A stretch of 64,000 nt of DNA, from the NCBI RefSeq assembly GCF_900103215.1, contig NZ_FNGV01000015.1, positions 62,001-126,000 on the forward strand. The letters run 5' to 3'. Position numbers and translations under genes: made by a program. Origin of the DNA: Kriegella aquimaris (GTDB taxonomy: Bacteria; Bacteroidota; Bacteroidia; Flavobacteriales; Flavobacteriaceae). Within the stretch, counting starts at the first letter, position 1, and the number at the start of each line of letters is the position of its first letter. Below are positions 1,242-13,379 of this stretch, piece after piece. The notes under the pieces were generated by a model. That model made no database searches. It was not told where the DNA came from and worked only from the letters and a program-made list of their open reading frames with translations.

Positions 1242-1484
1242 TTATAGGGAATCTTTCGGAAAATCTTTTTGAATTCTATATATCAAAGGCTCAAGACCAT
1301 TAATCTTTATCTCCAGCATCGCCTCTAATAAATTTCCCAACTTACCTTGTGGAAAGCCTTTCTGCTTAAACCAAATCAAATAGGGTTCGGGAAGGTCTAC
1401 CAAATAGCGGCCTTTAAATTTACCAAAAGGCATTCTATAATAAGCCAACTCAAGAAGCTTTCGTTTGTCCGGGGATATTTCCAT
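1242..1484 (-). CDS. DUF3820 family small protein
   Basis: An 80-residue protein that fits the DUF3820 family, whose function is not well established. The core motif is MPFGKFKGRYLVDLP followed by a conserved aromatic segment (YLIWFKQKGFP). The protein has no signal peptide and is probably cytoplasmic. A related GK(F/H)KG...D...W module is fused to the C-terminus of the DEDDh exonuclease at 40021-40797, which suggests a nucleic-acid-related role (inference). It lies 48 bases upstream of pyrG on the same strand and is divergent from the TIM-barrel gene starting at 1531. Confidence 0.85.
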   Translation of the reverse strand: MEISPDKRKLLELAYYRMPFGKFKGRYLVDLPEPYLIWFKQKGFPQGKLGNLLEAMLEIKINGLEPLIYRIQKDFPKDSL

Positions 1485-1530
1485 TTGTGGGTTTAAAAAT
1501 ATATCTTTAATCCCGATTATTCATCATATC

Positions 1531-2400
1531 ATGAAAAGAAGAACATTTATTGGAACATCGGCAGCAGCTTCAGTTGGCGTGCTAGCCTATAAAAATGGAA
1601 ATGCAATGCCGAATGCCGAAAGCGACACCTACAAGCTAAAAAACAATATCAATCATAGTGTTTGCAGGTGGTGCTATAAAGACATTCCAATGGAAGATTT
1701 TCTGAAGAACCTAAATGAATTAGGCATTAAAGCCATGGATCTTACCGGACCTGAAGATTGGCCATTAATGAAAAAATATGGTATCCACTCCTCTATGTGT
1801 TGGGGTGCCGGTTTTGGGATTGAGAAAGGATGGAACGACCTTAGCTTGCATGAAGAACTTATTGCCGATTACACCCAAATGATACCGAAAGTAGCGGAAG
1901 CCGGTTTTACCAACCTGATATGCTTTAGCGGAAACCGTAATGGAATGGATGATGCAATAGGATTAAAAAACTGTGCCGAAGGACTGAAAAAAATAATGCC
2001 AGTTGCTGAAAAACATGGCGTTGTGGTTCAAATGGAACTACTGAACTCTAAAGTAAACCACCCCGACTATATGTGTGACAAGAGCGACTGGGGCGTTGAA
2101 CTTTGCAAACAGATCGGATCTGAGAATTTTAAACTTCTATACGATATTTACCATATGCAGATTATGGAAGGGGATATTATTCGCAATATTCAAGACTTTA
2201 ATCAATATTTTGGACATTACCATACCGGAGGCAACCCAGGGCGGCATGAAATAGATGAAACGCAAGAGCTATTTTACCCTGCAATCATGCAGGCTATCTT
2301 GAAAACAGGTTATAAAGGTTATGTTGCTCAAGAGTTTGTACCTTCATGGGATGACCAGATTGCAGCTTTAAAACAAGGGGTCACTATTTGTGACGTGTAA
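1531..2400 (+). CDS. Hydroxypyruvate isomerase-like TIM-barrel protein with Tat signal
   Basis: A 289-residue protein of the xylose isomerase-like TIM-barrel superfamily, closest in character to hydroxypyruvate isomerases. The start at 1531 gives MKRRTFIGTSAAASVGVLA, a twin-arginine (RR-T-F) signal followed by a hydrophobic stretch, so export in folded form is likely. An upstream in-frame ATG at 1465 would add 22 residues before this signal and is rejected. The metal-binding acidic and histidine residues expected of the fold are plausible in the segments VQMELLNSKVNH, LLYDIYHMQ, GHYHTGGNPGRHEID and AQEFVP. The substrate is probably a small sugar or keto acid but is not determinable. The gene is convergent with the CHASE2 gene downstream. 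Confidence 0.82.
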   Translation: MKRRTFIGTSAAASVGVLAYKNGNAMPNAESDTYKLKNNINHSVCRWCYKDIPMEDFLKNLNELGIKAMDLTGPEDWPLMKKYGIHSSMCWGAGFGIEKGWNDLSLHEELIADYTQMIPKVAEAGFTNLICFSGNRNGMDDAIGLKNCAEGLKKIMPVAEKHGVVVQMELLNSKVNHPDYMCDKSDWGVELCKQIGSENFKLLYDIYHMQIMEGDIIRNIQDFNQYFGHYHTGGNPGRHEIDETQELFYPAIMQAILKTGYKGYVAQEFVPSWDDQIAALKQGVTICDV

Positions 2401-2450
2401 ACTAGTAAGCAATCTTGATTCTTTATAGAAAAAATCTATAGAATTGGAAG

Positions 2451-2465
2451 CTTAGATCTTCTAAG
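2451..2465. terminator. Weak inverted repeat between convergent genes
   Basis: CTTAGA, 3-base loop, TCTAAG lies between the convergent TIM-barrel and CHASE2 genes. The stem is short and A/T-rich, so a terminator role is only tentative. Confidence 0.25.
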
Positions 2466-2536
2466 TAATTCAAAGGAATTGCTTCTGGTACAATGGTCTG
2501 TGGCAAACTCGAATCCTTTCTGTTATCTGCCTTTTT

Positions 2537-3748
2537 TCAATTGGTCGATTTTCTTCTTCTACTCGTATTCTGCCCTATATTTAGTCTTCTTTTTATTCTC
2601 AGGTAATGAAAATGGCGGTTAACGACTATATTTTCCAAATAGAAGAAGATTCCCATGTAGGCCAAATTAAAGTTACTGTCGAAAATGGAATTGATTAATA
2701 TCGAAAAAAAAGACATGGCCAAAACATAGCTTGCCCCGCCCACAAGACCACCAAGCAGGGGATATTTAAATACCTTGCTTTCCACTTTACTCTGCTTCGT
2801 AATTACCAAAAAGGAGAAAAACAGAAAAATAAGCAAGAGACTAACCACCAACCAGAATGAAATTTTAGGGTACCCTTTCTCCAAGGCTAAAAAAGCATTC
2901 AATAATATCAAATGTGAAGGTGTCTTTGCATCATAGACTGTTTTCTTGAGGTTATTATAATAATCACCGATAATGATAATTTTATCCTTTGTGAGCTCGG
3001 CGAGATGGGCATCATCAAACAATAAAATATCGCCGAGATCAATTGGTCGGACTATATCATCATTTTTTACTTCGTATTCAGGCGTAAAATCGTTGAATAT
3101 TAGGGAGCCGTTCAATCGGCTAAAGAAAAACCCAGGATCTATCTTCTGGTCATATAAAGCTTCGTACATTATAAGCGGCATAGATTTTAAAACCGTATCG
3201 CCCGATTTCTCAAAAAGTCGATATTTGCTGAACGACCCCCCAGGCGTATAAATGGCATCCAAACCCAAATTAAGCCCTTTAAAGTCTAACAATACTTTAT
3301 TAATATCCTCTCCTTGCGCCACAACCATGTTCTTAGCATTCTGCATCGACGAAAGCAAATCTCTGTCATAGTCAGAAGGCTGATCGAACAACACGTTACA
3401 AACGATATAGCGATAATTGCGAAAACGCTCAATACGTTCAAAGAATCGGGCCAGTTTTTCCCTGTCCAAAATAGCAACATTACCTCTTTGTATACCTTCG
3501 AAATCAGCACCTCCCCAAACGTTTTCATAATGTGGCACCAACATTCTATCATAGCTGGTATTGATAATCAAAAATTCCTTTTTATAGCCTTCAGGTGTCC
3601 CAGATATTGATATATTCTTAACCAAAGGCCCAAGAAAGAAAAGTTTGCTGTTTTCGCCCGGAAGAATATGACTCTTTTGAAGCACAAAAAACAACAGCAG
3701 AGCGCCCAAGGTATTGATTGCGCAAAATTTGATTTGTTTTCTGTTCAT
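2537..3748 (-). CDS. CHASE2-type extracytoplasmic sensor membrane protein without output domain
   Basis: A 403-residue membrane protein. An N-terminal transmembrane helix (about residues 9-25) is followed by a long extracytoplasmic segment (about 30-290) with CHASE2-like features: early 'LIINTSYDRML', 'YRYIVCNVLFDQPSDYDRDLLSSM', and the late strand-turn 'KDKIIIIGDYYNN'. Three further helices follow at about 295-316, 331-354 and 362-380, then a basic tail. CHASE2 domains normally sense external signals for kinases, cyclases or CHAT proteins; here no cytoplasmic output domain is attached, so the signal must pass to a partner. The gene follows the secreted-protein gene (3754-4509) with a 5-base gap and is in the same operon. 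It stands opposite the TPR-CHAT gene. The family call is from motif recognition and overall topology. Confidence 0.72.
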   Translation of the reverse strand: MNRKQIKFCAINTLGALLLFFVLQKSHILPGENSKLFFLGPLVKNISISGTPEGYKKEFLIINTSYDRMLVPHYENVWGGADFEGIQRGNVAILDREKLARFFERIERFRNYRYIVCNVLFDQPSDYDRDLLSSMQNAKNMVVAQGEDINKVLLDFKGLNLGLDAIYTPGGSFSKYRLFEKSGDTVLKSMPLIMYEALYDQKIDPGFFFSRLNGSLIFNDFTPEYEVKNDDIVRPIDLGDILLFDDAHLAELTKDKIIIIGDYYNNLKKTVYDAKTPSHLILLNAFLALEKGYPKISFWLVVSLLLIFLFFSFLVITKQSKVESKVFKYPLLGGLVGGASYVLAMSFFSILINSIFDSNFNLAYMGIFFYLENIVVNRHFHYLRIKRRLNIGQNTSRRRKSTN

Positions 3749-3753
3749 TGTAA

Positions 3754-4509
3754 TTAATTCCTCCTGAAATCTGACAACTCAATATCAGACCCATAGCTCT
3801 CTTTTAGATACCCCATCAATTCAGCATCAATCTCCGATTCGGTTTTTCCTGTTGCTTCCAAAAGACCTTTGAGAAGCGTTAATTCATCTCTGACACTTTC
3901 AAAATCTGTAAAAACATAGGCCACACCCTTCATAATTTTGTCGGTACCCGAGGTAGCGTCATAAAAACCGATAGTACCATAAGACAGCATATCTGCACTG
4001 CCATCGCACCCTGCTTCCAAGATGTCATCGCCGATCAAAAGCATGCGCTCTTCATTTAATATGAGCTTTTTCCGCACTATATCTGCATCTTTTTTATATT
4101 TAAAAAAATAATAGGAATCGGCATCTTTTGGAACAAAAAAGACCTTCACTTTCTTGGGCCGCAGCAATTTTTTATTATCAACAAATAGGTATGAAAAGTT
4201 ATTATCTGCCCCACGGGTAGACGTGTATTCTTTTTGCGATAGGATGCTCTTTTTTCCTACAGATCGTGAAGGATGGCACAAGAACATATACTCTTCTTGA
4301 TCAATATTCCATAACCTGGCCATATCGTTCTTGGTGGAAAATTGAAAGCTATCTTTTGTAACAACCTTTAAGATATTCCCCCGCGAAACAGGTATGGAAT
4401 CAGGACCATAGGTAATTTGCCCTCTAACCTGAAACACCTGAAATTCATCTGCTTGTGAAAAAAGCGGCTGCATAACAAGTAAGAGCAAACAAATGACAAT
4501 CTTCATCAA
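3754..4509 (-). CDS. Exported protein of unknown function in the CHASE2/CHAT locus
   Basis: A 251-residue protein that I do not recognise. Residues 1-20 (MMKIVICLLLLVMQPLFSQA) form a clear Sec signal peptide with a cleavage site after FSQA, so it is periplasmic or surface-exposed. The first ~70 residues after cleavage (FQVRGQITYGPDSIPVSRGNIL...) look beta-rich and resemble a short sensor or SH3-like module, and the C-terminal ~60 residues look helical and acidic. No catalytic motif is evident. The start could be either of two adjacent ATGs. It is the first gene of a two-gene operon with the CHASE2 protein (5-base gap), 167 bases from the divergent TPR-CHAT gene. It may be an adaptor or a substrate of the CHAT domain (inference only). 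Confidence 0.75.
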   Translation of the reverse strand: MMKIVICLLLLVMQPLFSQADEFQVFQVRGQITYGPDSIPVSRGNILKVVTKDSFQFSTKNDMARLWNIDQEEYMFLCHPSRSVGKKSILSQKEYTSTRGADNNFSYLFVDNKKLLRPKKVKVFFVPKDADSYYFFKYKKDADIVRKKLILNEERMLLIGDDILEAGCDGSADMLSYGTIGFYDATSGTDKIMKGVAYVFTDFESVRDELTLLKGLLEATGKTESEIDAELMGYLKESYGSDIELSDFRRN

Positions 4510-4676
4510 ATATAAAATTCAAGTTATTTTCAATTGTTTTGAGGAAAGGGATTTCTTCATTTTAAAATTAGGATTTACATATCGTAAGCCTTCCTCGAAA
4601 TTCAACTAAAATGGAAAACTAAAATAAGATAATTATTGTAAGTTTAGTGAGTATTCTTTAACATCAGGCCAGAACA
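4510..4676. promoter_or_regulatory. Divergent promoter region of the CHASE2 and CHAT genes
   Basis: 167 A/T-rich bases separate the two oppositely directed transcription units. This must hold both promoters, but no convincing TTTG/TAnnTTTG pair or operator palindrome is visible. Confidence 0.4.
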
Positions 4677-7600
4677 ATGAAAGTATTTCTTTTTCTATTG
4701 ACCACTTCCATACATTTCGGATTATTTTCAATCGACCATTCTTCCAAAGATTTCCAAGAAAACCTTCTTATAACCGCTTCGACCGAAATTCGAACGGCAC
4801 AAACCCTTATTCAAGCCAAAAAATACGATGAGGCAATGACTTTGCTTGGTCAGATTAGAAAAAAGATTCAAGATTCCAAGCCACAAGAAACTTTTACGAT
4901 GTTGACATTACAGGCAATTAGCTTGGAAAATTCTATCTATTTGGAGCAAAAGGAATACGACAAAGGCATATCTTTTTTAAAATCTTCGTTCAATACACTT
5001 TTACAATCATCTTACGAAAACGAAAATTTCCCAATTCTTATTTTTAGCCAAGCTACGGGGATGCTACAGGGCTATGAAAGAGCAAAACGATACGAAGATG
5101 TACTCGCCATATATCAGTTTTTTGAAGAAAAGGGTACTTTAACAGGCCCTATAAAAGACCTATATCAATATCAAATAGCAGCTCTTAATTCAAGTATTAA
5201 AAAAAGACAGGAAAAAGAAAACAGAAAGGCCAATACGGCCACTACTGAAAAGACTTCACCAACTAGAACCGAAAACAGTACCGAAAATAAAGCCCTTGCA
5301 GCTACACTGTCATTACAAGAAGCGGTAGATTCCAATACCTTTTCAAAAGAAGATATACTTCGTATGGCCGAATACTCCCAAGACGAAGATACAGACGCCG
5401 ATATTGCCAAATTGTTGGCCCTGGCAGATTTAAAAGAAGAAATGGACACTAAAACCGACTTCACCAATAACGCGGCCCTTTTAGAAAAGCTACAACAAGT
5501 CGACCCCGATGGCGCGGATGAATTTAATGGGGAAATGAACCAAATCGCACAAAAAATAACAACCCTTTTGGGTATAGAAGACCTAAACGACCTCGATAAT
5601 CTATCAATTGGCGATATGAACTTGAATTTTGAGGCTATTCAACAAATGGCAGCCGAATCTGACCTCGACATTTCGATGGATAGCATAAAATATGCATGGA
5701 ACAACCTCAAAACAAACGACTCATTACTATACGATAAATTAAAGCGTACATCCCAGAAGAACCTGTCAGAAATGAACGATTCAAATACAACAGGTACATC
5801 AAGATTAATGGAAACCCATAATTTGTTCGGTGCAAACCTACGTTTGAAAGAATACGGTCTTGCCAAAAAAAATCTGGACGATTTTGCTTCCATTTACCAA
5901 AATCTACCTGAAATCGAAAGGGGAGACTATGACGAGAGTATCATCAACATCTCATACTGGAGCCTCTATTTTGCTCAAAAAAAGTATAGACAGGCATTAC
6001 CCTATGCCGTTAATTTGACAGAAAACAATAAAGGTATTGCCCATACCAATAGTGAGTACACTGTGGCCCTTACCTATTTTCAAATGAAAGAATTTCAGAA
6101 CGCCCAAAAATGGAGTGAAATAGCCATTACAAACCTAAAGGCGCAAGGCACAAAAAACAATAGCACCGATATACAACAAGCAAAAACCGTAAGAGCACAG
6201 TCACTCTTGGCACTTGAAAAGTACCAAGAGGCATTCAACAGTTTTGAATCACTCGAAATACAAACGCAAATAAACCCTAAGAGAGAACCTTCATTGCTAG
6301 ACTTATATTTCTCTCCCCTTTCGGGGATGGCGCTTGCATGTGAAAAAATGGGGCAAAGTGAAAAAGCGGATAAATATATGTCGCAATACATCAATACGGT
6401 TACAGATGAAGTATTTGAAAGAAACATGAATTCGTTAGTTCGCCCGGAGGAAAATGAGGAAAAATATATTTCAGACAATATCTTCTATTTTTTAAGTGAA
6501 CGGAAAAAAGAATCAGAAGAGGTCTTAGGGCTTGGATACAATACTGCATTACTGTTCAAAGAATTTCAATTGAACAGCGCCATGACCATGGCAGACAATT
6601 ACCTCGACACCAATGATCGTGAATTAAAAAAGCTGTTCTATGACTACCTCGAGGTTAAAGAAAAATCGAAAGATTTGAATAGTAGCAGCAGACAAAAAGA
6701 TTCATTGGCCGATTACGATCGGGCTTACGAAAAGATTTTGAAACAAAAGAATAAAGAGCAAATAGTTAAGTTATTTGACGTTTCAGACTTGAATTTTACA
6801 CATGTCAAGTCCCAACTTAAAGTTAGGGAAGCTGCTTTGGAATTCGTTTCCTACTCCCCCTATGCCTTCTCTGAAAATTCAGAAGCTATATTCTATGGAG
6901 TTTTTATACTTATGCAAAACGATACCCATCCTGAATTCATACCTTTATTTCAAGATACCGACCTAAAATCATTTTTGGAACCCACAGATAATATGGGTAG
7001 TACGTTGGCACAAACAGAATACATCTACAAAACCAATGCCACCCAATTATACCAGCTTATTTGGAAGCCCCTTGAGCAACACCTAAAAAATATCAAGACC
7101 CTGTTCTACGCACCGACCGGCATATTGCATTCGTTGTGTTTCGATGCGCTTTCGAGCAGTAATGGTAGCTTCTTATCCGATCAGTATCGGCTTATCAGAG
7201 TCGGAAGCACAAAAAATATTGCAAAAACAAGGGCCTCTTACCAACCCTATAATAAGGTGGCCCTATTAGGTGGAATAGACTACGATTACAACCTTTCTTC
7301 AGAAACCTCAACACGTGGTGGAAAAGAACGTTCGGGCGAATTTACGGCACTAGCCGGCACAGCCGAAGAAATAAATCTGTTGAACGATTTGGTTAAATCA
7401 CAAGGGCTCACCGCCATCATCAATTCTGAGCAAAATGCTACCGAAGAGCGACTTTATCATATCATTGAACAAGAACGACCCGATATTTTACATGTTGCCA
7501 CACATGCTTTTTATGTTAAATCCGTTGAAGAGGATATGTTTACGGCTTCAGAAAATGTTGGGTATGGCATTATAAAAGAAAACCAAGACCCCATGAATCG

Positions 7601-8006
7601 TTCCGGTTTGGCCCTTGCAGGCGCAAACCGGTTTTGGAAATCTGGGAACAAAGTTTCTAATCAATTGGAAGACGGTATCGTAACCGCCAATGAAATGGCC
7701 AACTTGAACTTGAGAAATGTAAAATTGGTGACCTTGTCCGCTTGCGAAACCGCTTTGGGACGTTCGTCGTCCAATGAAGGGGTTTTTGGCCTACAACGCG
7801 GACTTAAAATGGCAGGTGCTGAAAATCTACTGCTTTCCCTTTGGAAAGTCGACGATATGGTCACTAAGGAATATATGACCGCCTTCTACTCGTATCTGTT
7901 ACAAAAGAAACTATCAATGCAGGAGGCATATGCAAAAACAAGGGAAGATATTAAAAAAGCACATCCTGAGCCCTACTTTTGGGCCTCGTTCGTTTTGATT
8001 CAGTAA
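4677..8006 (+). CDS. TPR-CHAT domain protein (caspase-like), predicted exported
   Basis: A 1109-residue protein. The N-terminus MKVFLFLLTTSIHFGLFSID looks like a signal peptide. Residues ~25-700 are helical with TPR-like pairs (for example EIRTAQTLIQAKKYDEAMTLL, YAVNLTENNKGIAHTNSEYTVALTYF), interrupted by a low-complexity acidic stretch near 180-300. The C-terminal ~350 residues are a CHAT domain, a cysteine protease fold related to caspases and separase: ILHVATHAFY carries the catalytic His (His943, with His939 in the same motif) and LSACETALG carries Cys1023. The motifs LALAGAN, DGIVTANEM and the terminal YFWASFVLIQ are typical of the family. Both catalytic residues are intact, so protease activity is plausible. 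The gene is divergent from the CHASE2 operon. The target is unknown. Confidence 0.9.
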   Translation: MKVFLFLLTTSIHFGLFSIDHSSKDFQENLLITASTEIRTAQTLIQAKKYDEAMTLLGQIRKKIQDSKPQETFTMLTLQAISLENSIYLEQKEYDKGISFLKSSFNTLLQSSYENENFPILIFSQATGMLQGYERAKRYEDVLAIYQFFEEKGTLTGPIKDLYQYQIAALNSSIKKRQEKENRKANTATTEKTSPTRTENSTENKALAATLSLQEAVDSNTFSKEDILRMAEYSQDEDTDADIAKLLALADLKEEMDTKTDFTNNAALLEKLQQVDPDGADEFNGEMNQIAQKITTLLGIEDLNDLDNLSIGDMNLNFEAIQQMAAESDLDISMDSIKYAWNNLKTNDSLLYDKLKRTSQKNLSEMNDSNTTGTSRLMETHNLFGANLRLKEYGLAKKNLDDFASIYQNLPEIERGDYDESIINISYWSLYFAQKKYRQALPYAVNLTENNKGIAHTNSEYTVALTYFQMKEFQNAQKWSEIAITNLKAQGTKNNSTDIQQAKTVRAQSLLALEKYQEAFNSFESLEIQTQINPKREPSLLDLYFSPLSGMALACEKMGQSEKADKYMSQYINTVTDEVFERNMNSLVRPEENEEKYISDNIFYFLSERKKESEEVLGLGYNTALLFKEFQLNSAMTMADNYLDTNDRELKKLFYDYLEVKEKSKDLNSSSRQKDSLADYDRAYEKILKQKNKEQIVKLFDVSDLNFTHVKSQLKVREAALEFVSYSPYAFSENSEAIFYGVFILMQNDTHPEFIPLFQDTDLKSFLEPTDNMGSTLAQTEYIYKTNATQLYQLIWKPLEQHLKNIKTLFYAPTGILHSLCFDALSSSNGSFLSDQYRLIRVGSTKNIAKTRASYQPYNKVALLGGIDYDYNLSSETSTRGGKERSGEFTALAGTAEEINLLNDLVKSQGLTAIINSEQNATEERLYHIIEQERPDILHVATHAFYVKSVEEDMFTASENVGYGIIKENQDPMNRSGLALAGANRFWKSGNKVSNQLEDGIVTANEMANLNLRNVKLVTLSACETALGRSSSNEGVFGLQRGLKMAGAENLLLSLWKVDDMVTKEYMTAFYSYLLQKKLSMQEAYAKTREDIKKAHPEPYFWASFVLIQ

Positions 8007-8075
8007 CAACATTAGGGGAATAGTCGAACTATCTTACTTTAAAATTAGAATATAGTCGATTCAACAACCCGAAAA

Positions 8076-8864
8076 TTAAAACAAGGGATCTAAATCGTCA
8101 TCATCTTCCATATCATCCAAGTCATCTTCCTCCACCAAATCGTCCGGAACATCGTCATTATCATCCATAAAATCATCGATCAACATCCCTTTGAAGTCTA
8201 AAAAATTTGGAGCGGCCACAAATAACAATCCGAACCCTCCTAAAAAACGATACAACAGTGAGGCACGCCGCATTTTTTCTTCTGATGCCTTGATACGCGC
8301 TCTGATAAATTCTTCAAGTTCTGTGCGCATTGCCTCCGCTCCCTGATTCTCGACCATACCAGCTAGCCGTTTTTCCGTGACCGTATTTACGAACGATTCC
8401 AAAGAACCTTCCTTTAATTCTTCCAACAAACCCTCAAGTGCCGAAATATGTTCTTGAATCAATTCTATTTTTGATGGAACTTGTTCAAATACAATATCAA
8501 GTATCTTATCCGATTGTTCAACTAGTGAATAGTGAGCAACTATTTCCACCTTATTTTCCTTTTCAAATTTCAAGAAAGTACTGGGCTTCCCCTCAAAATA
8601 ATAATTGGTAATAACGTTGAGCGTTTTAAGGGTTGGCTTGTGAACTTCTTTAATGGTCAATTGTGTTTGTTGCTTTAATTGTTCCCTTAAGTCAAATGCT
8701 CTTTGAATAGTGCGCTGATGGATGGTTTCCCTATCGAGGGTGCCTTCGGTTGCAATTTTCAAATAGATATTATCATCCTCCTTATAGACATCATCTTTTA
8801 GAACCTGATCCATGAGGTAAATAAATGCTGGAATATGTGCTCTAGAAAATTTCCATTTTGACAT
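8076..8864 (-). CDS. Unknown protein with C-terminal acidic tail
   Basis: A 262-residue protein I do not recognise. The start is set at 8864 (MSKWKFSRAHIPAFIYLMDQVL) because the 44 residues before it in the long frame are low quality and overlap promoter elements. The N-terminal two thirds is a charged alpha/beta region with strands such as TLKTLNVITNYYF; the middle is helical (possible coiled coil, SKIELIQEHISALEGLLEELKEGSLE); a hydrophobic segment SLLYRFLGGFGLLFVAAPNFL at about 210-230 may insert in a membrane; the last ~35 residues are almost entirely Asp/Glu. It is convergent with the CHAT gene, 69 bases away, but belongs to a separate transcript. Its function is unknown. Confidence 0.75.
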   Translation of the reverse strand: MSKWKFSRAHIPAFIYLMDQVLKDDVYKEDDNIYLKIATEGTLDRETIHQRTIQRAFDLREQLKQQTQLTIKEVHKPTLKTLNVITNYYFEGKPSTFLKFEKENKVEIVAHYSLVEQSDKILDIVFEQVPSKIELIQEHISALEGLLEELKEGSLESFVNTVTEKRLAGMVENQGAEAMRTELEEFIRARIKASEEKMRRASLLYRFLGGFGLLFVAAPNFLDFKGMLIDDFMDDNDDVPDDLVEEDDLDDMEDDDDLDPLF

Positions 8865-8877
8865 ATCCAAAAATATG

Positions 8878-8911
8878 TAAAAATATACTGCTTTTAACCT
8901 GTAAAGACAAA
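8878..8911 (-). promoter_or_regulatory. Putative promoter of the acidic-tailed protein gene
   Basis: On the minus strand TTTG (8908-8911), exactly 20 bases, then TATATTTT (8880-8887), seven of eight positions of TAnnTTTG. This fits the Bacteroidota promoter well. A second TATTTTTG lies at 8868-8875, only 3 bases before the start codon. Confidence 0.5.
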
Positions 8912-8914
8912 AGG

Positions 8915-8942
8915 CATGACTTGACATGACTTGACATGTCAA
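8915..8942. promoter_or_regulatory. Tandem repeat plus perfect palindrome, candidate operator
   Basis: CATGACTTGA is repeated twice (8915-8924, 8925-8934). It runs into the perfect 12-base palindrome TTGACATGTCAA (8931-8942). The site sits about 20 bases upstream of the -33 element of the minus-strand gene and between two divergent genes, where an activator or repressor would bind. Confidence 0.4.
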
Positions 8943-9061
8943 ATGTAACGGTGCATTTCGATGCAACTTGCGGTATGATTCAGAAACAAATATCACATTG
9001 GATCATACATGAGAGGCCTCTCATTTTTTAACGGAATTAATAACACTTAAATCCTAAGAAG

Positions 9062-9226
9062 ATGAGACTCAAGTTTATCAAATTAGTAATCGCAGTTGTA
9101 TTGTTAAATGTAATTTTCGTTTCATGTGAAAAGGTTGAAGAAGCAGTCATCTATGATGAGTTGGAGCTACTTTTACCCAAGGCACATGACGAGGATGCGG
9201 ACACAGAAATGGAACCGAACATCTAG
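9062..9226 (+). CDS. 54-residue lipoprotein
   Basis: A very short gene missed by length cut-offs. It encodes a 54-residue precursor: a hydrophobic signal (LVIAVVLLNVIFVSC) with the lipid cysteine at residue 22, then a 32-residue mature part rich in Glu/Asp. The acidic residues right after the cysteine (CEKVEE) resemble the lipoprotein export signal that sends Bacteroidota lipoproteins to the cell surface. It has its own strong terminator 9 bases downstream, which supports a real, single-gene transcript. Function unknown. Confidence 0.7.
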   Translation: MRLKFIKLVIAVVLLNVIFVSCEKVEEAVIYDELELLLPKAHDEDADTEMEPNI

Positions 9227-9234
9227 TTTCATAC

Positions 9235-9280
9235 AACCCTGAACGTTCTAATAGCGTTCAGGGTTATTTTTAGTTCTTTT
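9235..9280 (+). terminator. Rho-independent terminator after the small lipoprotein gene
   Basis: An 11-base-pair perfect stem, AACCCTGAACG (9235-9245) with CGTTCAGGGTT (9255-9265), a 9-base loop and a following T-rich run. It ends the transcript of the 54-residue lipoprotein. Confidence 0.85.
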
Positions 9281-9336
9281 TTTAAGATGTTGTGCCTATC
9301 ACATCGAAATTCTTCTATCTGTTTTAAGATTTCAAT

Positions 9337-9981
9337 CTATAAGGCACCTTCCCTATTGGCATTTTTGTAACTCACATAGATTGAGATTAAATTTACCGTA
9401 TTTCTCGCATCCAATTTTTGTGTGCAATTTTTTATATGGGTTTCTACCGTACGGATACTGATATAGAGTTTGTCCGCAATTTCTTTCTGGGTAAGCCCCT
9501 GCGCCAAAAGCTCTACAATTTCCTTTTCCCTTTTTGAAATTTCCATCCATCGCCCGATTTCGAGCATCGCCTTGATATTTTTGTCAGCATAAGTATTTCC
9601 TTCGGCCACGGTTTCGATAGCTTCCAAGGTCTCACCTACGCCCAGCTTCTTATCAAGATAGCCTTGCACCCCTATTTCTGAAAACAAGATTTCGTAACTG
9701 TCGATCTTAGCTTGCTGTGTAAGTACGATAATCTTTACCAATGGGTAATTTTCCTTAACTTTTCTAGCGATGGTAAATCCATCAAAATGGGTAGACTCAA
9801 AATTAAGGTCCAATATCAAAATATCTATGTCCGTTTCAGACAATCGTACTAAAGTCTCTTGGTAATCATGGGCTACGAAAACCGCCGATATCTTTTCTGG
9901 ATACTGTAGCAGAAGTTGCTGTAGACCTTGCGAGAAAATGACCGAATCTTCGGCAATAAGAATTTTTAAAGGTTTGTCCAT
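9337..9981 (-). CDS. NarL/LuxR-family response regulator
   Basis: A 214-residue DNA-binding response regulator. Receiver domain at residues ~5-125: acidic pair E11/D12, phosphoacceptor Asp58 in LILDLNF, Thr/Lys switch residues in VLTQQAK. LuxR-type helix-turn-helix at ~146-205 (SKREKEIVELLAQGLTQKEIA, then TVETHIKN). It is phosphorylated by the histidine kinase encoded 9 bases upstream in the same operon. The probable targets are the divergent small exported proteins starting at 12138 and its own promoter (inference from the inverted repeat at 12060-12075). Confidence 0.93.
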   Translation of the reverse strand: MDKPLKILIAEDSVIFSQGLQQLLLQYPEKISAVFVAHDYQETLVRLSETDIDILILDLNFESTHFDGFTIARKVKENYPLVKIIVLTQQAKIDSYEILFSEIGVQGYLDKKLGVGETLEAIETVAEGNTYADKNIKAMLEIGRWMEISKREKEIVELLAQGLTQKEIADKLYISIRTVETHIKNCTQKLDARNTVNLISIYVSYKNANREGAL

Positions 9982-9990
9982 AGTTTTATA

Positions 9991-11994
9991 CTAAATGGGG
10001 AAACTAAATTTCACCTCGGTTCCTCCGTTTACTTTTTGAATACTGCTATGCCCACCCAACAGCTCTGCTCTTTGTTTTATGTTCAATAATCCAATACCAT
10101 TTTTGGCGCTATCGTCAAGCCCCATACCGTTATCTTTTATTCTAAACTGCAAAATCTTATTGCCGATGACCTCACAATCGATATCTAGTTGTGTAGCTTG
10201 GGCATGTTTGGCTACATTATGCAATACTTCAAGCAATATGCTATAGATGTGATTCTGAACCTCAAAATCCAAATCGTTCAAAACTGGGGGTAGCTCTTGC
10301 TCAAGTTGCACTTCAATCTTTCTATACAATTGGAATTCTGCCAGCTGCGATTTTATAATGGCGGTAAATGGACGCCCCTTAGCCATCATTTCTAAAGGAA
10401 ACAACCTATGGGAGACCTTTCTTACTTGGTCATTGACTACTTCTATATCGGAAGCTATGTTCTCGGCTAGAACATTTTGATCTGAAGCCCGCGGCATGGC
10501 CAACACCTTTAATCGAAGCCCGTTAAAATTTGCAGCTACGATATCGTGAAGGTCCCTAGCTATTCTTTTTTTTATAGTTTCCTGACCTTGATATATAGCC
10601 TCCAATTTTTCTATTTTAAGCGCCTGTTCCTTTGCTTTTTGTTTCTGGGCATAAACGTAATAACTTATAGTCAGCAACAGCACCACAAGTCCTAAAAAGG
10701 CGAGCATCCAATTCTTATTAAGAAGATTCCCTCTTTGTTGCTCCAACAACAACAGATTATTTTGATTGGCAAGGGAAAGTTGAAGGTTTTCATTGACCTT
10801 TTTTTCATAGGCAAAACGAGATTGCATGGTCTGTATAATCTCCGTGCGTTCTAAATCGTAAACATTTTCAAAAAGTTCAGAATACCTTTTTTGATAATCG
10901 GAGGCCAATCTATAGGCTCCGACTCTCCGCTGATAGGTGACTTGATTCTTATAATAATCCAACAAAACCAATTGATTGGAAATATGGGGAAGAAAACTTG
11001 CAACCGAATCTAAATAGACCTTTGCCGATTTGAGATTACCCTGTATGAGCCTAAGATCGGCCATACCATTGTAACTATACATTACGGCTGCCGTGTCATT
11101 CTTTTTTTTCTTGTAATAAATTGATAATTCAAAATTTTCCCTAGCCAAATCGTTCCGCCCCTTTGATTTGTATAAGTTGGCAAGATTATATAGAATTTTA
11201 CCATAGTTTACATTGTCGGACTCTAATAAATTGAGGGCCTGGGTGTAATAAACGATGGCAGAGTCTTGCTGTCCCAAATTTTTATAAACGATGGCCAGAT
11301 TATTATAGTAGCTTGATTTTTCATCTTCTCCATTGTTTAAATTCCCCAATTCCAGAGCCTGTTTGTGGAAATCCAAGGCCTGATCATAGTTTTTCAAGTG
11401 GTTATGGATGTTTCCTATAGCACTAGAAACCTTGGCCAACTGTCGCGAGTCGTTCAAATCGGAAAAACCTGTATGTGCCAACAGCAATAATTCCAAGGCC
11501 TTATCATAAAGCTGGTTGTTCTTATAAACCGTACCGGCACTGAGGTAAGCATTATAGGTAGAGGCATCGTATTCCAAGTTTTGGTACAAGGCAATACTCT
11601 TTTCCAAATAAGGCAATATATTGCCTTGTTTCGGCAATTTTCTTTTTAATAGATAAAGATTATAGTAGGTATCGGCAGCTGTTTTAGTAGTACTATCAAG
11701 CTGCAGACTTTTCCTGTAACTTTCTTCGGCTCTTTCAAACTCCTTTTTAAGATAATGATAGACTCCGATTTTCTTATGTAAATCGGCTAGGGCCATTGTA
11801 TCGTCAATAACAGCTGCCAAAGCCAATGCTTGTTGATAATTGTCAAAGGCCTGCTCTTTATGATTGTCCCTCAGCAAGCTGTCTCCTTGTTCCATTAGTA
11901 CATCAATTTCCGATAACCCATCGGTTATTTGTGCATTAATGTTCAGGTTACATAGGAAAAAAATCAAAAAAACATGTATTTGCAATTTTCGCAT
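9991..11994 (-). CDS. TPR-containing sensor histidine kinase (HisKA_3 type)
   Basis: A 667-residue membrane kinase. The start at 11994 (MRKLQIHVFLIFFLCNLNINAQ) gives a signal peptide; a longer frame from 12084 adds 30 residues and overlaps the promoter region, so it is rejected. Residues ~25-390 carry TPR repeats that lie outside the cytoplasm, followed by a coiled coil, one transmembrane helix (MLAFLGLVVLLLTISYYVYA) and a HisKA_3 dimerisation domain with the phosphoacceptor His483 in ARDLHDIVAANF. A HATPase_c domain with the N-box (EVLHNVAKHA) and G-box (DNGMGLDD, GIGLLNIKQRAELLGG) ends the protein. It pairs with the response regulator 9 bases downstream. The signal sensed by the TPRs is unknown. 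Confidence 0.92.
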   Translation of the reverse strand: MRKLQIHVFLIFFLCNLNINAQITDGLSEIDVLMEQGDSLLRDNHKEQAFDNYQQALALAAVIDDTMALADLHKKIGVYHYLKKEFERAEESYRKSLQLDSTTKTAADTYYNLYLLKRKLPKQGNILPYLEKSIALYQNLEYDASTYNAYLSAGTVYKNNQLYDKALELLLLAHTGFSDLNDSRQLAKVSSAIGNIHNHLKNYDQALDFHKQALELGNLNNGEDEKSSYYNNLAIVYKNLGQQDSAIVYYTQALNLLESDNVNYGKILYNLANLYKSKGRNDLARENFELSIYYKKKKNDTAAVMYSYNGMADLRLIQGNLKSAKVYLDSVASFLPHISNQLVLLDYYKNQVTYQRRVGAYRLASDYQKRYSELFENVYDLERTEIIQTMQSRFAYEKKVNENLQLSLANQNNLLLLEQQRGNLLNKNWMLAFLGLVVLLLTISYYVYAQKQKAKEQALKIEKLEAIYQGQETIKKRIARDLHDIVAANFNGLRLKVLAMPRASDQNVLAENIASDIEVVNDQVRKVSHRLFPLEMMAKGRPFTAIIKSQLAEFQLYRKIEVQLEQELPPVLNDLDFEVQNHIYSILLEVLHNVAKHAQATQLDIDCEVIGNKILQFRIKDNGMGLDDSAKNGIGLLNIKQRAELLGGHSSIQKVNGGTEVKFSFPI

Positions 11995-12059
11995 TGAAAG
12001 GCTTTTGAGGTTTCTAAGGTAGAAAAATATTGGTGTCAAAAAATAAAGCCCCCCCAAAT

Positions 12060-12075
12060 TACGGGAATACCCGTA
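12060..12075. promoter_or_regulatory. Inverted repeat in the divergent two-component/lipoprotein promoter region
   Basis: TACGGG, AATA, CCCGTA: a 6-base-pair inverted repeat with a 4-base spacer. It lies 66 bases upstream of the kinase gene and 63 bases upstream of the divergent gene at 12138. NarL-type regulators bind short inverted repeats of this size, so it is a candidate binding site of the response regulator (inference). Confidence 0.45.
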
Positions 12076-12137
12076 TTGACCCAAAAAAGGATAAGCCCTT
12101 ATTTTACCGATAGAATGTTGAACCTAAATGAGCCAAA

Positions 12138-12686
12138 ATGAAAACATTAAAAAACACACTACCCATTATCGTATTCTTGTGCTGCAGTCTCCTTATTGCT
12201 CAAAATACCGGTAGGAGCGAAACTGGAGATAAAGAACAGGAGAAAAAGACCATAAAGGAAGTCGATCAAATAAACAAAGCATCTGCAGAGATCAATGAAG
12301 TCTCGGAAAACACATCAGAAGCAGTCAAAAGTACTGTAGAGAACACCAAGGAAACAGCAAAGGCCATCGGTTCGCTTTTCGGTAGTGGAAACAAAGAAAA
12401 GAAAGACAAAGATACCCCAGATGTGGTAGTCATCATTCACAACGTCACTTATGATGATGATAATCTCAATGCACTCTATGAGAAAATCTCAAAAGCAAAA
12501 AACGTAAAAAAAGCATCAAAGAATTTCAGCGGAGAGACCGCGACAATAAATTTATCAAGTAAAGAAAACGCAGATGCCTTATGGCAAAGCGTTCCTAAAC
12601 CGGTACGAAGTGCTTTTAAGATGATAACCATGGGTGAAAGCAGCATAACGGTACAACTTGCCGGAACTTCCTTTGAAGAAGAATAA
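12138..12686 (+). CDS. Exported protein, coiled-coil plus ferredoxin-like C-terminal domain
   Basis: A 182-residue protein of unknown function. It has a Sec signal peptide (about residues 1-21, cleavage after LLIAQ), then a Lys/Glu-rich helical segment (~25-75), and a compact C-terminal domain (~95-178) that alternates strand, helix, strand (DVVVIIHNVTYDD, LNALYEKISKAKNV, TATINLSSK, ALWQSVPKPVRSAF, SSITVQLA). This pattern suggests a ferredoxin-like fold (inference). It is the first gene of a five-gene plus-strand block of exported proteins, divergent from the histidine kinase, and is the most likely direct target of that system. Confidence 0.75.
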   Translation: MKTLKNTLPIIVFLCCSLLIAQNTGRSETGDKEQEKKTIKEVDQINKASAEINEVSENTSEAVKSTVENTKETAKAIGSLFGSGNKEKKDKDTPDVVVIIHNVTYDDDNLNALYEKISKAKNVKKASKNFSGETATINLSSKENADALWQSVPKPVRSAFKMITMGESSITVQLAGTSFEEE

Positions 12687-12722
12687 TGTTTCATCCAAAA
12701 AACAACAATTTAAAAACTCACT

Positions 12723-13379
12723 ATGAGAAATAAAACATTGAAGCACTACCTATTTATGGTTGTTTTAATACTGGTGGTAAACATTGGTTGTACCCCCAAC
12801 GGTATCGATACGCCATTCGACAACCTTGTTAAAGATGAAGTCAAGGATGACCAATTGGATAACGGAAATGATGGCGAAAATGAAGACGACAAGGGGGAGC
12901 AAGAAATCAACTCCTCTCTAACAGCCAAAGTCAACGGAAACGATTTTAAGACTACAACGGTGCTTCAACAATACATTGCAGGTGCCTCGGTAAGTGTAAA
13001 TGAAAATTTCTACGGGATTGGGGTAATCGCCCTAGACGTAAAACTTGATATACGCAAACCAAGGTCTATATATTTATTCATGTATGGTGAAGATTTCAAT
13101 GCATTAAAAGCTGGCACCTCTTTCACCACTGTAACCAATATTGTAATTCCTGAAAATGGTGGTGCCTTTGCGATTTATAGCGAGGATCCCGACACTAAGG
13201 TAGAAGACGATGAAATTTCTACAGAGATAGTGGAATCGATCAGCATAAAAATAACCGCTTTGGACAAAGTAAACTATTTAATTTCAGGTGAGTTCAGTTA
13301 TACGGCTATCGACGAAGACACCAATAAAAAGTATATCATCACCGATGGTAAGTTTGAAGATATGAAATACGAAAATTGA
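12723..13379 (+). CDS. Lipoprotein, possibly DUF6252-like
   Basis: A 218-residue lipoprotein. The signal peptide ends in VNIGC with the lipid cysteine at about residue 23. An acidic, low-complexity linker (EVKDDQLDNGNDGENEDDKG) follows. The rest is beta-rich and begins with LTAKVNGNDFKTTTV, a pattern I associate with DUF6252-type Bacteroidota lipoproteins. The linker suggests that the folded part is held off the membrane, probably on the cell surface. Second gene of the block beginning at 12138 (36-base gap). Function unknown. Confidence 0.75.
   Translation: MRNKTLKHYLFMVVLILVVNIGCTPNGIDTPFDNLVKDEVKDDQLDNGNDGENEDDKGEQEINSSLTAKVNGNDFKTTTVLQQYIAGASVSVNENFYGIGVIALDVKLDIRKPRSIYLFMYGEDFNALKAGTSFTTVTNIVIPENGGAFAIYSEDPDTKVEDDEISTEIVESISIKITALDKVNYLISGEFSYTAIDEDTNKKYIITDGKFEDMKYEN

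Follow-up and report, generated by a model that had tools for sequence, protein, structure and literature searches.

A caspase-fold protease, a small exported protein and a CHASE2 protein encoded side by side as a predicted envelope module of distant Bacteroidota

Results

Genes of the locus

We analysed a 64,000-nucleotide stretch of the Kriegella aquimaris genome (assembly GCF_900103215.1, contig NZ_FNGV01000015.1, positions 62,001 to 126,000), hereafter the window, in which three neighbouring genes encode a CHASE2 protein, a small exported protein and a caspase-fold protease. The CHASE2 gene (2537..3748, minus strand) encodes an inner-membrane protein of 403 amino acids (aa) with relatives in 16 other genomes. 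Only 5 bp upstream on the same strand, an open reading frame (ORF) at 3754..4509 encodes an exported protein of 250-251 aa from an unnamed family, which we label SEC. Across a divergent intergenic region of 167 bp (4510..4676), the third gene (4677..8006, plus strand) encodes an exported TPR-CHAT protease of 1109 aa. The original prediction, made from the letters alone, had described these three ORFs, with signal or membrane segments in every product, and both points held. Signal peptides were judged from hydropathy and by eye, not by SignalP; all three proteins appear to be exported or membrane-bound, and none was assigned to a different compartment from the others.

The CHASE2 assignment was made by Pfam on the whole protein, in which residues 92-313 matched PF05226 (28.4 bits, cut-off 26.3, E = 1.5e-6); a six-frame search of the genome scored the same protein at 23.3 bits, below that cut-off. 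The two relatives scanned were both below it, one at 14.1 bits (G042) and the other with no match (G062). Hydropathy alone indicated one N-terminal hydrophobic segment (6-22) and three C-terminal ones (300-316, 331-347 and 360-376), the topology of an N-terminal transmembrane segment, an extracytoplasmic domain and three C-terminal transmembrane segments. No cytoplasmic output domain was found in the window CHASE2, as had been predicted: the protein ends in a 27-residue basic tail and has no second Pfam domain. No PDB sequence matched it at E <= 1. Published accounts place CHASE2 among extracellular sensory domains (PMC5192318, PMC2853523), and what it recognises was stated as unknown in 2016 (PMC5192318). 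As a separate observation, the CHASE2 proteins of six loci (L031, L035, L053, L054, L056, L057) end, beyond their last membrane segment, in a conserved short tail that resembles LRETYFNFK and on which a cytoplasmic partner might dock.

The 1109-aa protein is a CHAT-family predicted protease, with a PF12770 match of 194 bits (cut-off 24), weak TPRs and a signal-like N-terminus. Its motifs THAF at 942 and SACE at 1021 supply His943 and Cys1023, the intact catalytic pair named in the original prediction. No PDB sequence matched this protein at E <= 0.01.

SEC begins with a signal-like hydrophobic stretch, and its TTG start at 4509 directly precedes an ATG (4506), so the length may be 250 aa. Pfam gave no match for the window protein, and NCBIfam gave one of 11.9 bits, far below the cut-off. 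A structure model predicted an N-terminal beta domain, a low-confidence linker and a C-terminal helical pair. The best PDB sequence match of SEC had an E-value of 0.27, and no SEC relative was found in the phage and plasmid collections. Two family assignments were tried and gained no significant support. A FecR-domain protein (PF04773) was considered for the N-terminal series G-x-V ... G-D-x-L ... D-x-L-x-F, which is FecR-like by eye only; none of six SECs had a Pfam match, and hhalign against one FecR protein aligned 30 columns at a non-significant probability of 0.6% (P = 0.09). Membership in DUF928 fared no better (hhalign probability 0.2%, E = 0.25).

Conservation of the trio

The queries for conservation were the CHASE2 protein and alignments of it, which kept the search independent of any protease nearby. 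Matches were accepted at E <= 1e-5, which gave 17 genomes including K. aquimaris; the genome samples overlap. A search of 60 relatives gave G042, 397 genomes of the family gave G062, and 395 genomes of the phylum gave G531, G621 and G729. Ten more came from 250 genomes of the order of G531 and one, G1506, from 149 genomes of the class of G621, while 195 genomes of the class of G729 returned only G729 itself and 395 genomes of the order added no strong match beyond G042, already found. Weaker matches were dropped; these came from six family genomes (E 1e-3 to 8e-3), from G053 in the phylum search, and from G053, G047 and G827 in the order search. A wide contig scan with a two-row CHASE2 query gave three loci, all in genomes already known or refound later; the six-row alignment was too divergent for such a scan. 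Two loci, L035 and L055, belong to the same genome (Pedobacter foliorum) and were counted once.

On maps of 19 kb, a caspase-fold protease gene lay within three genes of CHASE2 or CHASE2-SEC at 15 of 17 loci, that is, in 14 of the 16 other genomes (in G729 it comes third, counted from SEC). With assumed per-genome chances of 0.01-0.05, such adjacency has P between 1e-26 and 7e-17; counted by family, with one genome each, it is 5 of 6, and the same assumed chances give P between 6e-10 and 2e-6. In a PF00656 genome search, 13 of 27 above-cut-off C14 matches were within 10 kb of a CHASE2 gene (coordinates read off). These counts are lower bounds, because the search missed C14 genes adjoining CHASE2 in G042, G531, G1434, G1389 and G1321.

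SEC accompanied CHASE2 clearly in 11 of the 16 other genomes, or 12 with the window; six of the 12 built the profile and six were found independently at 80-193 bits. The protein in the SEC position scored 13-15 bits in G1240 and G1384, was exported and without detectable similarity in G1332 and G1393, and was absent in G1430. The layout was also conserved: G062, which belongs to another genus, has the same divergent trio with proteins 23-38% identical, and its SEC and CHASE2 genes overlap by 14 bp. We conclude that the trio is a conserved, predicted envelope module of distant Bacteroidota. The neighbourhood conservation that the original prediction had proposed as a check was thus observed.

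No relative of the L031 CHASE2 was found in the plasmid collection, and CHASE2 was near in one of the four plasmid CHAT loci inspected first. One locus, L034 (NZ_JAAFZB010000096.1, titled Flavihumibacter soli), has a SEC 57% identical to that of Pedobacter foliorum, and its genome is possibly mislabelled.

Caspase-fold proteases of the loci

The protease class varied among the 15 protease-bearing loci, with CHAT in two (window and G062) and C14 in 13. Since C14 caspases replace CHAT in most of them, the unit is CHASE2, SEC and some caspase-fold protease, and CHAT is not its defining part; the extracytoplasmic locus of the original prediction was conserved as one locus, in most genomes with C14 in the place of CHAT. 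In a tree of CHASE2 proteins, in which 7 of 14 inner branches were unresolved, the two CHAT-linked members (window and G062) formed a 100/100 clade, and a single exchange between CHAT and C14 therefore suffices. The two CHAT proteins are 34% identical over 802 columns, and the window protein is closer to that of G062 (406 bits) than to the best paralogue in its own genome (208 bits). The K. aquimaris genome holds one CHASE2 match and five CHAT matches, and no CHASE2 or SEC match lies within the 17-19 kb stretches around the four other CHAT genes. At three of these, on other contigs than the window (L010 7315-11531, L011 7576-11623, L012 3888-8613), the CHAT gene stands beside a sigma-70-like gene of extracytoplasmic function (ECF) type and a TPR protein; Sigma70_r2 scored 26.6 and 27.6 bits (cut-off 24) and, in the third, 18.0 bits, below the cut-off. 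These surroundings are a second recurrent CHAT setting, accounting for 3 of the 5 CHAT genes of the genome.

A hydrophobic N-terminal segment above threshold was present in 21 of 27 protease genes (L055 duplicates of L035 omitted); the other six include one fragment at a locus end, and some of their N-termini are signal-like by eye, for example that of the G062 CHAT. Among 28 C14 rows, here including three L055 duplicates, patterns detected the catalytic His-Gly in 26 and the Cys motif in 22. The C14 of L063 was missed by both patterns and has both by eye. No Cys pattern was matched in the 573-574 aa products of L035 and L057, which may be altered or inactive.

Tandem protease genes at five loci allowed the catalytic and front parts to be compared. 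The catalytic domain was more alike than the front part in all 14 pairs (for example, 95% versus 53% and 76% versus 34% for C14 domain and front part), two of the comparisons resting on just 94-100 aligned front-part columns. Three to four C14 genes stand in tandem upstream of CHASE2 in L053 (570-9060), L031 (10419-18943) and L035 (3029-9004), with catalytic domains 41-98% alike, which suggests gene conversion or recombination in some of the arrays.

Arginine motif of the exported protein

An alignment of the 12 clear SECs showed few conserved columns, namely an N-terminal block, a C-terminal Tyr-Gly and an Arg in the linker. In the stretch from residue 70 to 191 (L035 numbering), no columns but Ser104 (10 of 12) and Arg106 (11 of 12) were shared by at least 10 of 12. 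In the window SEC this site is the S-T-R-G of residues 97-100 (4210..4221, minus strand), with a candidate cleavage site after Arg99. Within residues 61-140, the pattern [STH][STM]R[GS], picked after inspection of the alignment, occurred in 11 of 12 clear SECs; in 2000 shuffles the same count averaged 0.11 and never exceeded 2. A narrower pattern, [ST][ST]R[GS], occurred in 10 of 12 (shuffle mean 0.085). For G729, the match counted under both patterns is a neighbouring TSRS; the aligned site itself, HTRG at 141, falls just beyond the counted stretch. The aligned Arg is also kept in four families besides f17, the family richest in clear SECs (window with G062, G042, G729 and G1506).

The ten-residue blocks that hold the motif had the lowest mean pLDDT in each of two SEC models, 27 (window residues 91-100) and 26, which may also reflect how little information four-row alignments contain. 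Outside the animal caspases, the C14 proteases that have been characterised cleave after Arg or Lys, according to a review (PMC5756287). Because of this specificity and the near-invariant linker Arg, we propose the motif as a candidate cleavage site, in the window after the Arg of STRG. The original prediction had named the small secreted protein as a possible substrate of the protease, a suggestion to which the motif gives indirect support and to which G621, with a clear SEC that lacks it, is an exception. Judged by eye, VSRG (G1332), THKG (G1240) and ESKG (G1393) stand in three of the divergent proteins that occupy the place of SEC; we give this little weight.

A caspase gene upstream of a CHASE2-cyclase gene

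The G621 contig C109 (Ignavibacteriales) carries, about 31 kb from its own CHASE2-SEC pair, a row of three genes at L085 8670-17257: a WD40-C14 gene, a small protein and a CHASE2-guanylate cyclase. The C14 domain was identified by a custom profile (282 bits), in a reading frame interrupted near its start. The cyclase protein matched PF05226 at 96.6 bits and PF00211 at 98.1 bits, so this CHASE2 is predicted to have a clear inward output, a cytoplasmic cyclase. The small signal-bearing protein resembles DUF4384 at 16.7 bits, under the cut-off of 27, and a FecR-domain gene (42.8 bits) lies about 3 kb upstream of the row on the opposite strand. The row shares with the trio a caspase gene that lies upstream of CHASE2 and, between the two, a gene for a small signal-bearing protein; it differs from the trio in the cyclase output and in the DUF4384-like small protein. 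We had considered that the only SEC without the motif came from a genome without a caspase, which this C14 gene disproved; the rest of the G621 genome was searched with Pfam models only.

Genes flanking the trio

Beyond the CHAT gene, the window encodes a 306-aa protein with an acidic tail (8076..8996, minus strand) and, at 9337..12084 on the same strand, a LuxR-type response regulator and a TPR histidine kinase; the link of either to the module is uncertain. A counterpart of the 306-aa protein adjoins CHASE2 in G062, with weak similarity (25 bits, 20% identity, a single comparison), and counterparts of the two-component genes lie near the trio there. When 99 kb of the window's own contig was compared with 57 kb of G062, the matching genes were the trio, the response regulator, the TPR kinase and a lipoprotein, plus two matches outside the cluster. 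Window 8076-13379 and L022 3843-8761 thus share a response regulator, a TPR kinase, a lipoprotein gene and perhaps the acidic-tailed protein near the trio, though rearranged. TPR kinases are common, and neither the two-component genes nor the lipoprotein gene was included in the module.

Discussion

The reading we prefer, with a probability of roughly 40%, is that the trio is an envelope signalling module in which an exported caspase-fold protease acts through SEC, as adaptor or substrate, on an output-less CHASE2 receptor. The variable front part of the protease (TPR here, WD40 elsewhere) would detect a stimulus outside the inner membrane, and the protease would cut SEC after Arg (between Ser-Thr-Arg and Gly in the window), so that its beta domain at the N-terminus comes apart from the C-terminal part. 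Altered in this way, SEC would then act on the periplasmic CHASE2 domain, which would relay the signal inward to a partner through its membrane segments and short cytoplasmic tail. A bolder form of this proposal, which we regard as doubtful, likens the relay to a protease-activated receptor: several exported proteases, CHAT and C14 interchangeably and each with its own kind of detecting front part, would cut one SEC after a single conserved Arg, and the cut form would activate CHASE2.

The direction, protease first and CHASE2 last, is the least certain step. It was suggested because the front parts of tandem proteases vary and because a caspase gene lies upstream of the CHASE2-cyclase gene, and these two observations lean, without proof, away from the original prediction that CHASE2 triggers the protease. 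Catalytic domains often change less than repeat regions anyway, which makes the tandem comparison weak support for a direction.

Other points also weigh against the preferred reading. Cleavage of SEC, binding and activity are all predictions from sequence, and no output partner of CHASE2 was identified. The two AlphaFold models of SEC are poor (pLDDT 56 and 59, each from a four-row alignment), and neither matched a solved PDB fold at E <= 0.001. The motif pattern was chosen after the fact, half of the clear SECs (6 of 12) come from the single family f17, and the G729 counts depend on a site beside the aligned one. G621 is a plain exception, with a C14 gene on the same contig, and neither pattern occurs in the four divergent proteins at the place of SEC. 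By the time of the review cited above (PMC5756287), characterised C14 enzymes included a single prokaryotic one. No preference for basic residues is known for CHAT, and Craspases cut between A and S, L and D, or M and K (PMC11106740); the case for a cleavage site is therefore weaker for CHAT than for C14. The subfamily is also sporadic, with CHASE2 matches at E <= 0.01 in 8 of 397 family genomes, strong only in K. aquimaris and G062, and 2 of 16 relatives have no adjacent protease: G621, whose C14 gene is the distant one, and G1430, with none within 19 kb.

The relay might instead run the other way, CHASE2 sensing with SEC as its ligand-binding partner and switching on a periplasmic protease that cuts other envelope proteins, so that the Arg motif would be a docking or structural element. 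This would agree with the published description of CHASE2 as an extracellular sensory domain (PMC5192318, PMC2853523) and with the pairing of a LysM-FecR protein with a CHASE2 kinase in Burkholderiales (PMC5192318); a CHASE2 without an output domain could also have the neighbouring protease as its output. In tandem proteases, however, front parts differ more than catalytic domains do, as would be expected of sensors (a weak argument), the motif falls in the least confident part of the SEC models, and another caspase-adjoining CHASE2 carries its own cytoplasmic cyclase; we consider this order of events rather unlikely. A different role for the conserved Arg linker would be that of a pseudo-substrate, SEC being an inhibitor or bait that is destroyed on activation and frees the protease, with CHASE2 anchoring the complex. 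The secreted partner does remain beside CHASE2 while proteases are exchanged, yet a single SEC per locus would face up to four protease genes (L053, L031) and one family would need to fit both CHAT and C14 clefts, which makes an inhibitor quite improbable.

Caspase-fold proteases and CHASE2 both occur in predicted conflict systems (PMC8195603), and variable front parts and a sporadic distribution would fit a system in which envelope damage, phage or a toxin at the surface triggers an exported protease that kills or lyses the cell. Nevertheless, PADLOC models gave no match at E <= 0.01 to any of the three window proteins and only a generic caspase match to the two C14 proteases scanned. The phage and plasmid collections contained no SEC relative, and no killing substrate outside the cytoplasm suggests itself; we judge such a killing function about as improbable as an inhibitor. 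That the genes are unrelated neighbours, adjacent by chance, is barely credible: two of 16 relatives do lack an adjacent protease, and against them stand the other 14 (P about 2e-6 or smaller even by family, with the assumed chances), the same divergent gene order in a second genus, where the proteins are 23-38% identical, and the four other CHAT genes of the genome, which have neither CHASE2 nor SEC in their 17-19 kb stretches.

Discussion of bacterial caspase-like proteases has mostly centred on cell death in the cytoplasm and on CRISPR immunity. A conserved set in which exported caspase-fold proteases accompany a CHASE2 receptor and a neighbour with a candidate cleavage site makes both the role of a bacterial caspase and the recognition by CHASE2 testable, and an exchange of CHAT for C14 would show that both families are able to do the same job.

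Comparison with known systems

The closest described relatives are the EACC2-caspase systems, in which proteins carry variable C-terminal domains including CHASE2 and have DUF1822 and ECF sigma neighbours (PMC8195603). They share with the trio the link between a caspase-fold protease and a CHASE2 domain. There, however, the protease is fused to CHASE2 on the cytoplasmic side, whereas here a separate exported protease accompanies a lone CHASE2, so that the combination of EACC2 and a caspase fused to a variable domain was not seen in the window. Pfam found no DUF1822 or ECF sigma gene among the seven window proteins scanned, at 1465-12084.

Cyanobacterial plasmids gave CHASE2 matches in 18 records, and ten loci were inspected. 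In 7 of the 10, a protein of 222-255 aa is encoded directly after the CHASE2 gene, and CHAT or TPR genes surround most; DUF1822 is annotated beside CHASE2 in 5 of the 10. Loci with the CHASE2 gene followed by a small protein, DUF928-like in some, are L066/L068, L077, L078, L079, L080, L083 and L084; three of six such small proteins scanned scored 17-23 bits for DUF928, below the cut-off of 26. They have no detectable relation to SEC (hhalign probability 0.2%). The three plasmid CHASE2 proteins scanned have an N-terminal CHAT-like domain (23.6 bits, just below the cut-off of 24, 43.6 and 36.9 bits); the original prediction had named a fusion of CHASE2 and CHAT in some cyanobacteria. We assume these plasmid loci to be EACC2 systems.

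The CHASE2-fused metacaspase of Trichodesmium likewise combines a C14 caspase with CHASE2, but it is a single protein with a predicted cytoplasmic caspase, and the parts of the sources seen mention no SEC (PMC3501461, PMC2853523); the section of PMC3501461 on metacaspase operons does not mention CHASE2 operon neighbours. The Burkholderia BiofilmReg operon (response regulator, LysM-FecR protein, CHASE2 histidine kinase) pairs an exported protein with a CHASE2 receptor, as the trio does; its CHASE2 carries PAS and kinase domains, the operon as described in the text available has no protease, and SEC is FecR-like by eye only (PMC5192318). Craspase, the type III-E TPR-CHAT protease with the substrate Csx30, resembles the trio in that a TPR-CHAT protease halves a dedicated partner, which is only proposed for the trio, and is unlike it in being RNA-activated (PMC11106740). 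The predicted export signal of the window CHAT argues against membership in Craspase as a partner of gRAMP/Cas7-11. Craspase is cytoplasmic, and we know of no Craspase with CHASE2.

Literature on CHASE2 with CHAT, caspase, FecR or DUF1822, from which most subscription papers were outside coverage, held no description of the trio. As far as we searched, the trio is undescribed as a module, while links between caspase or CHAT proteins and CHASE2, and operons of FecR proteins with CHASE2 kinases, are already known.

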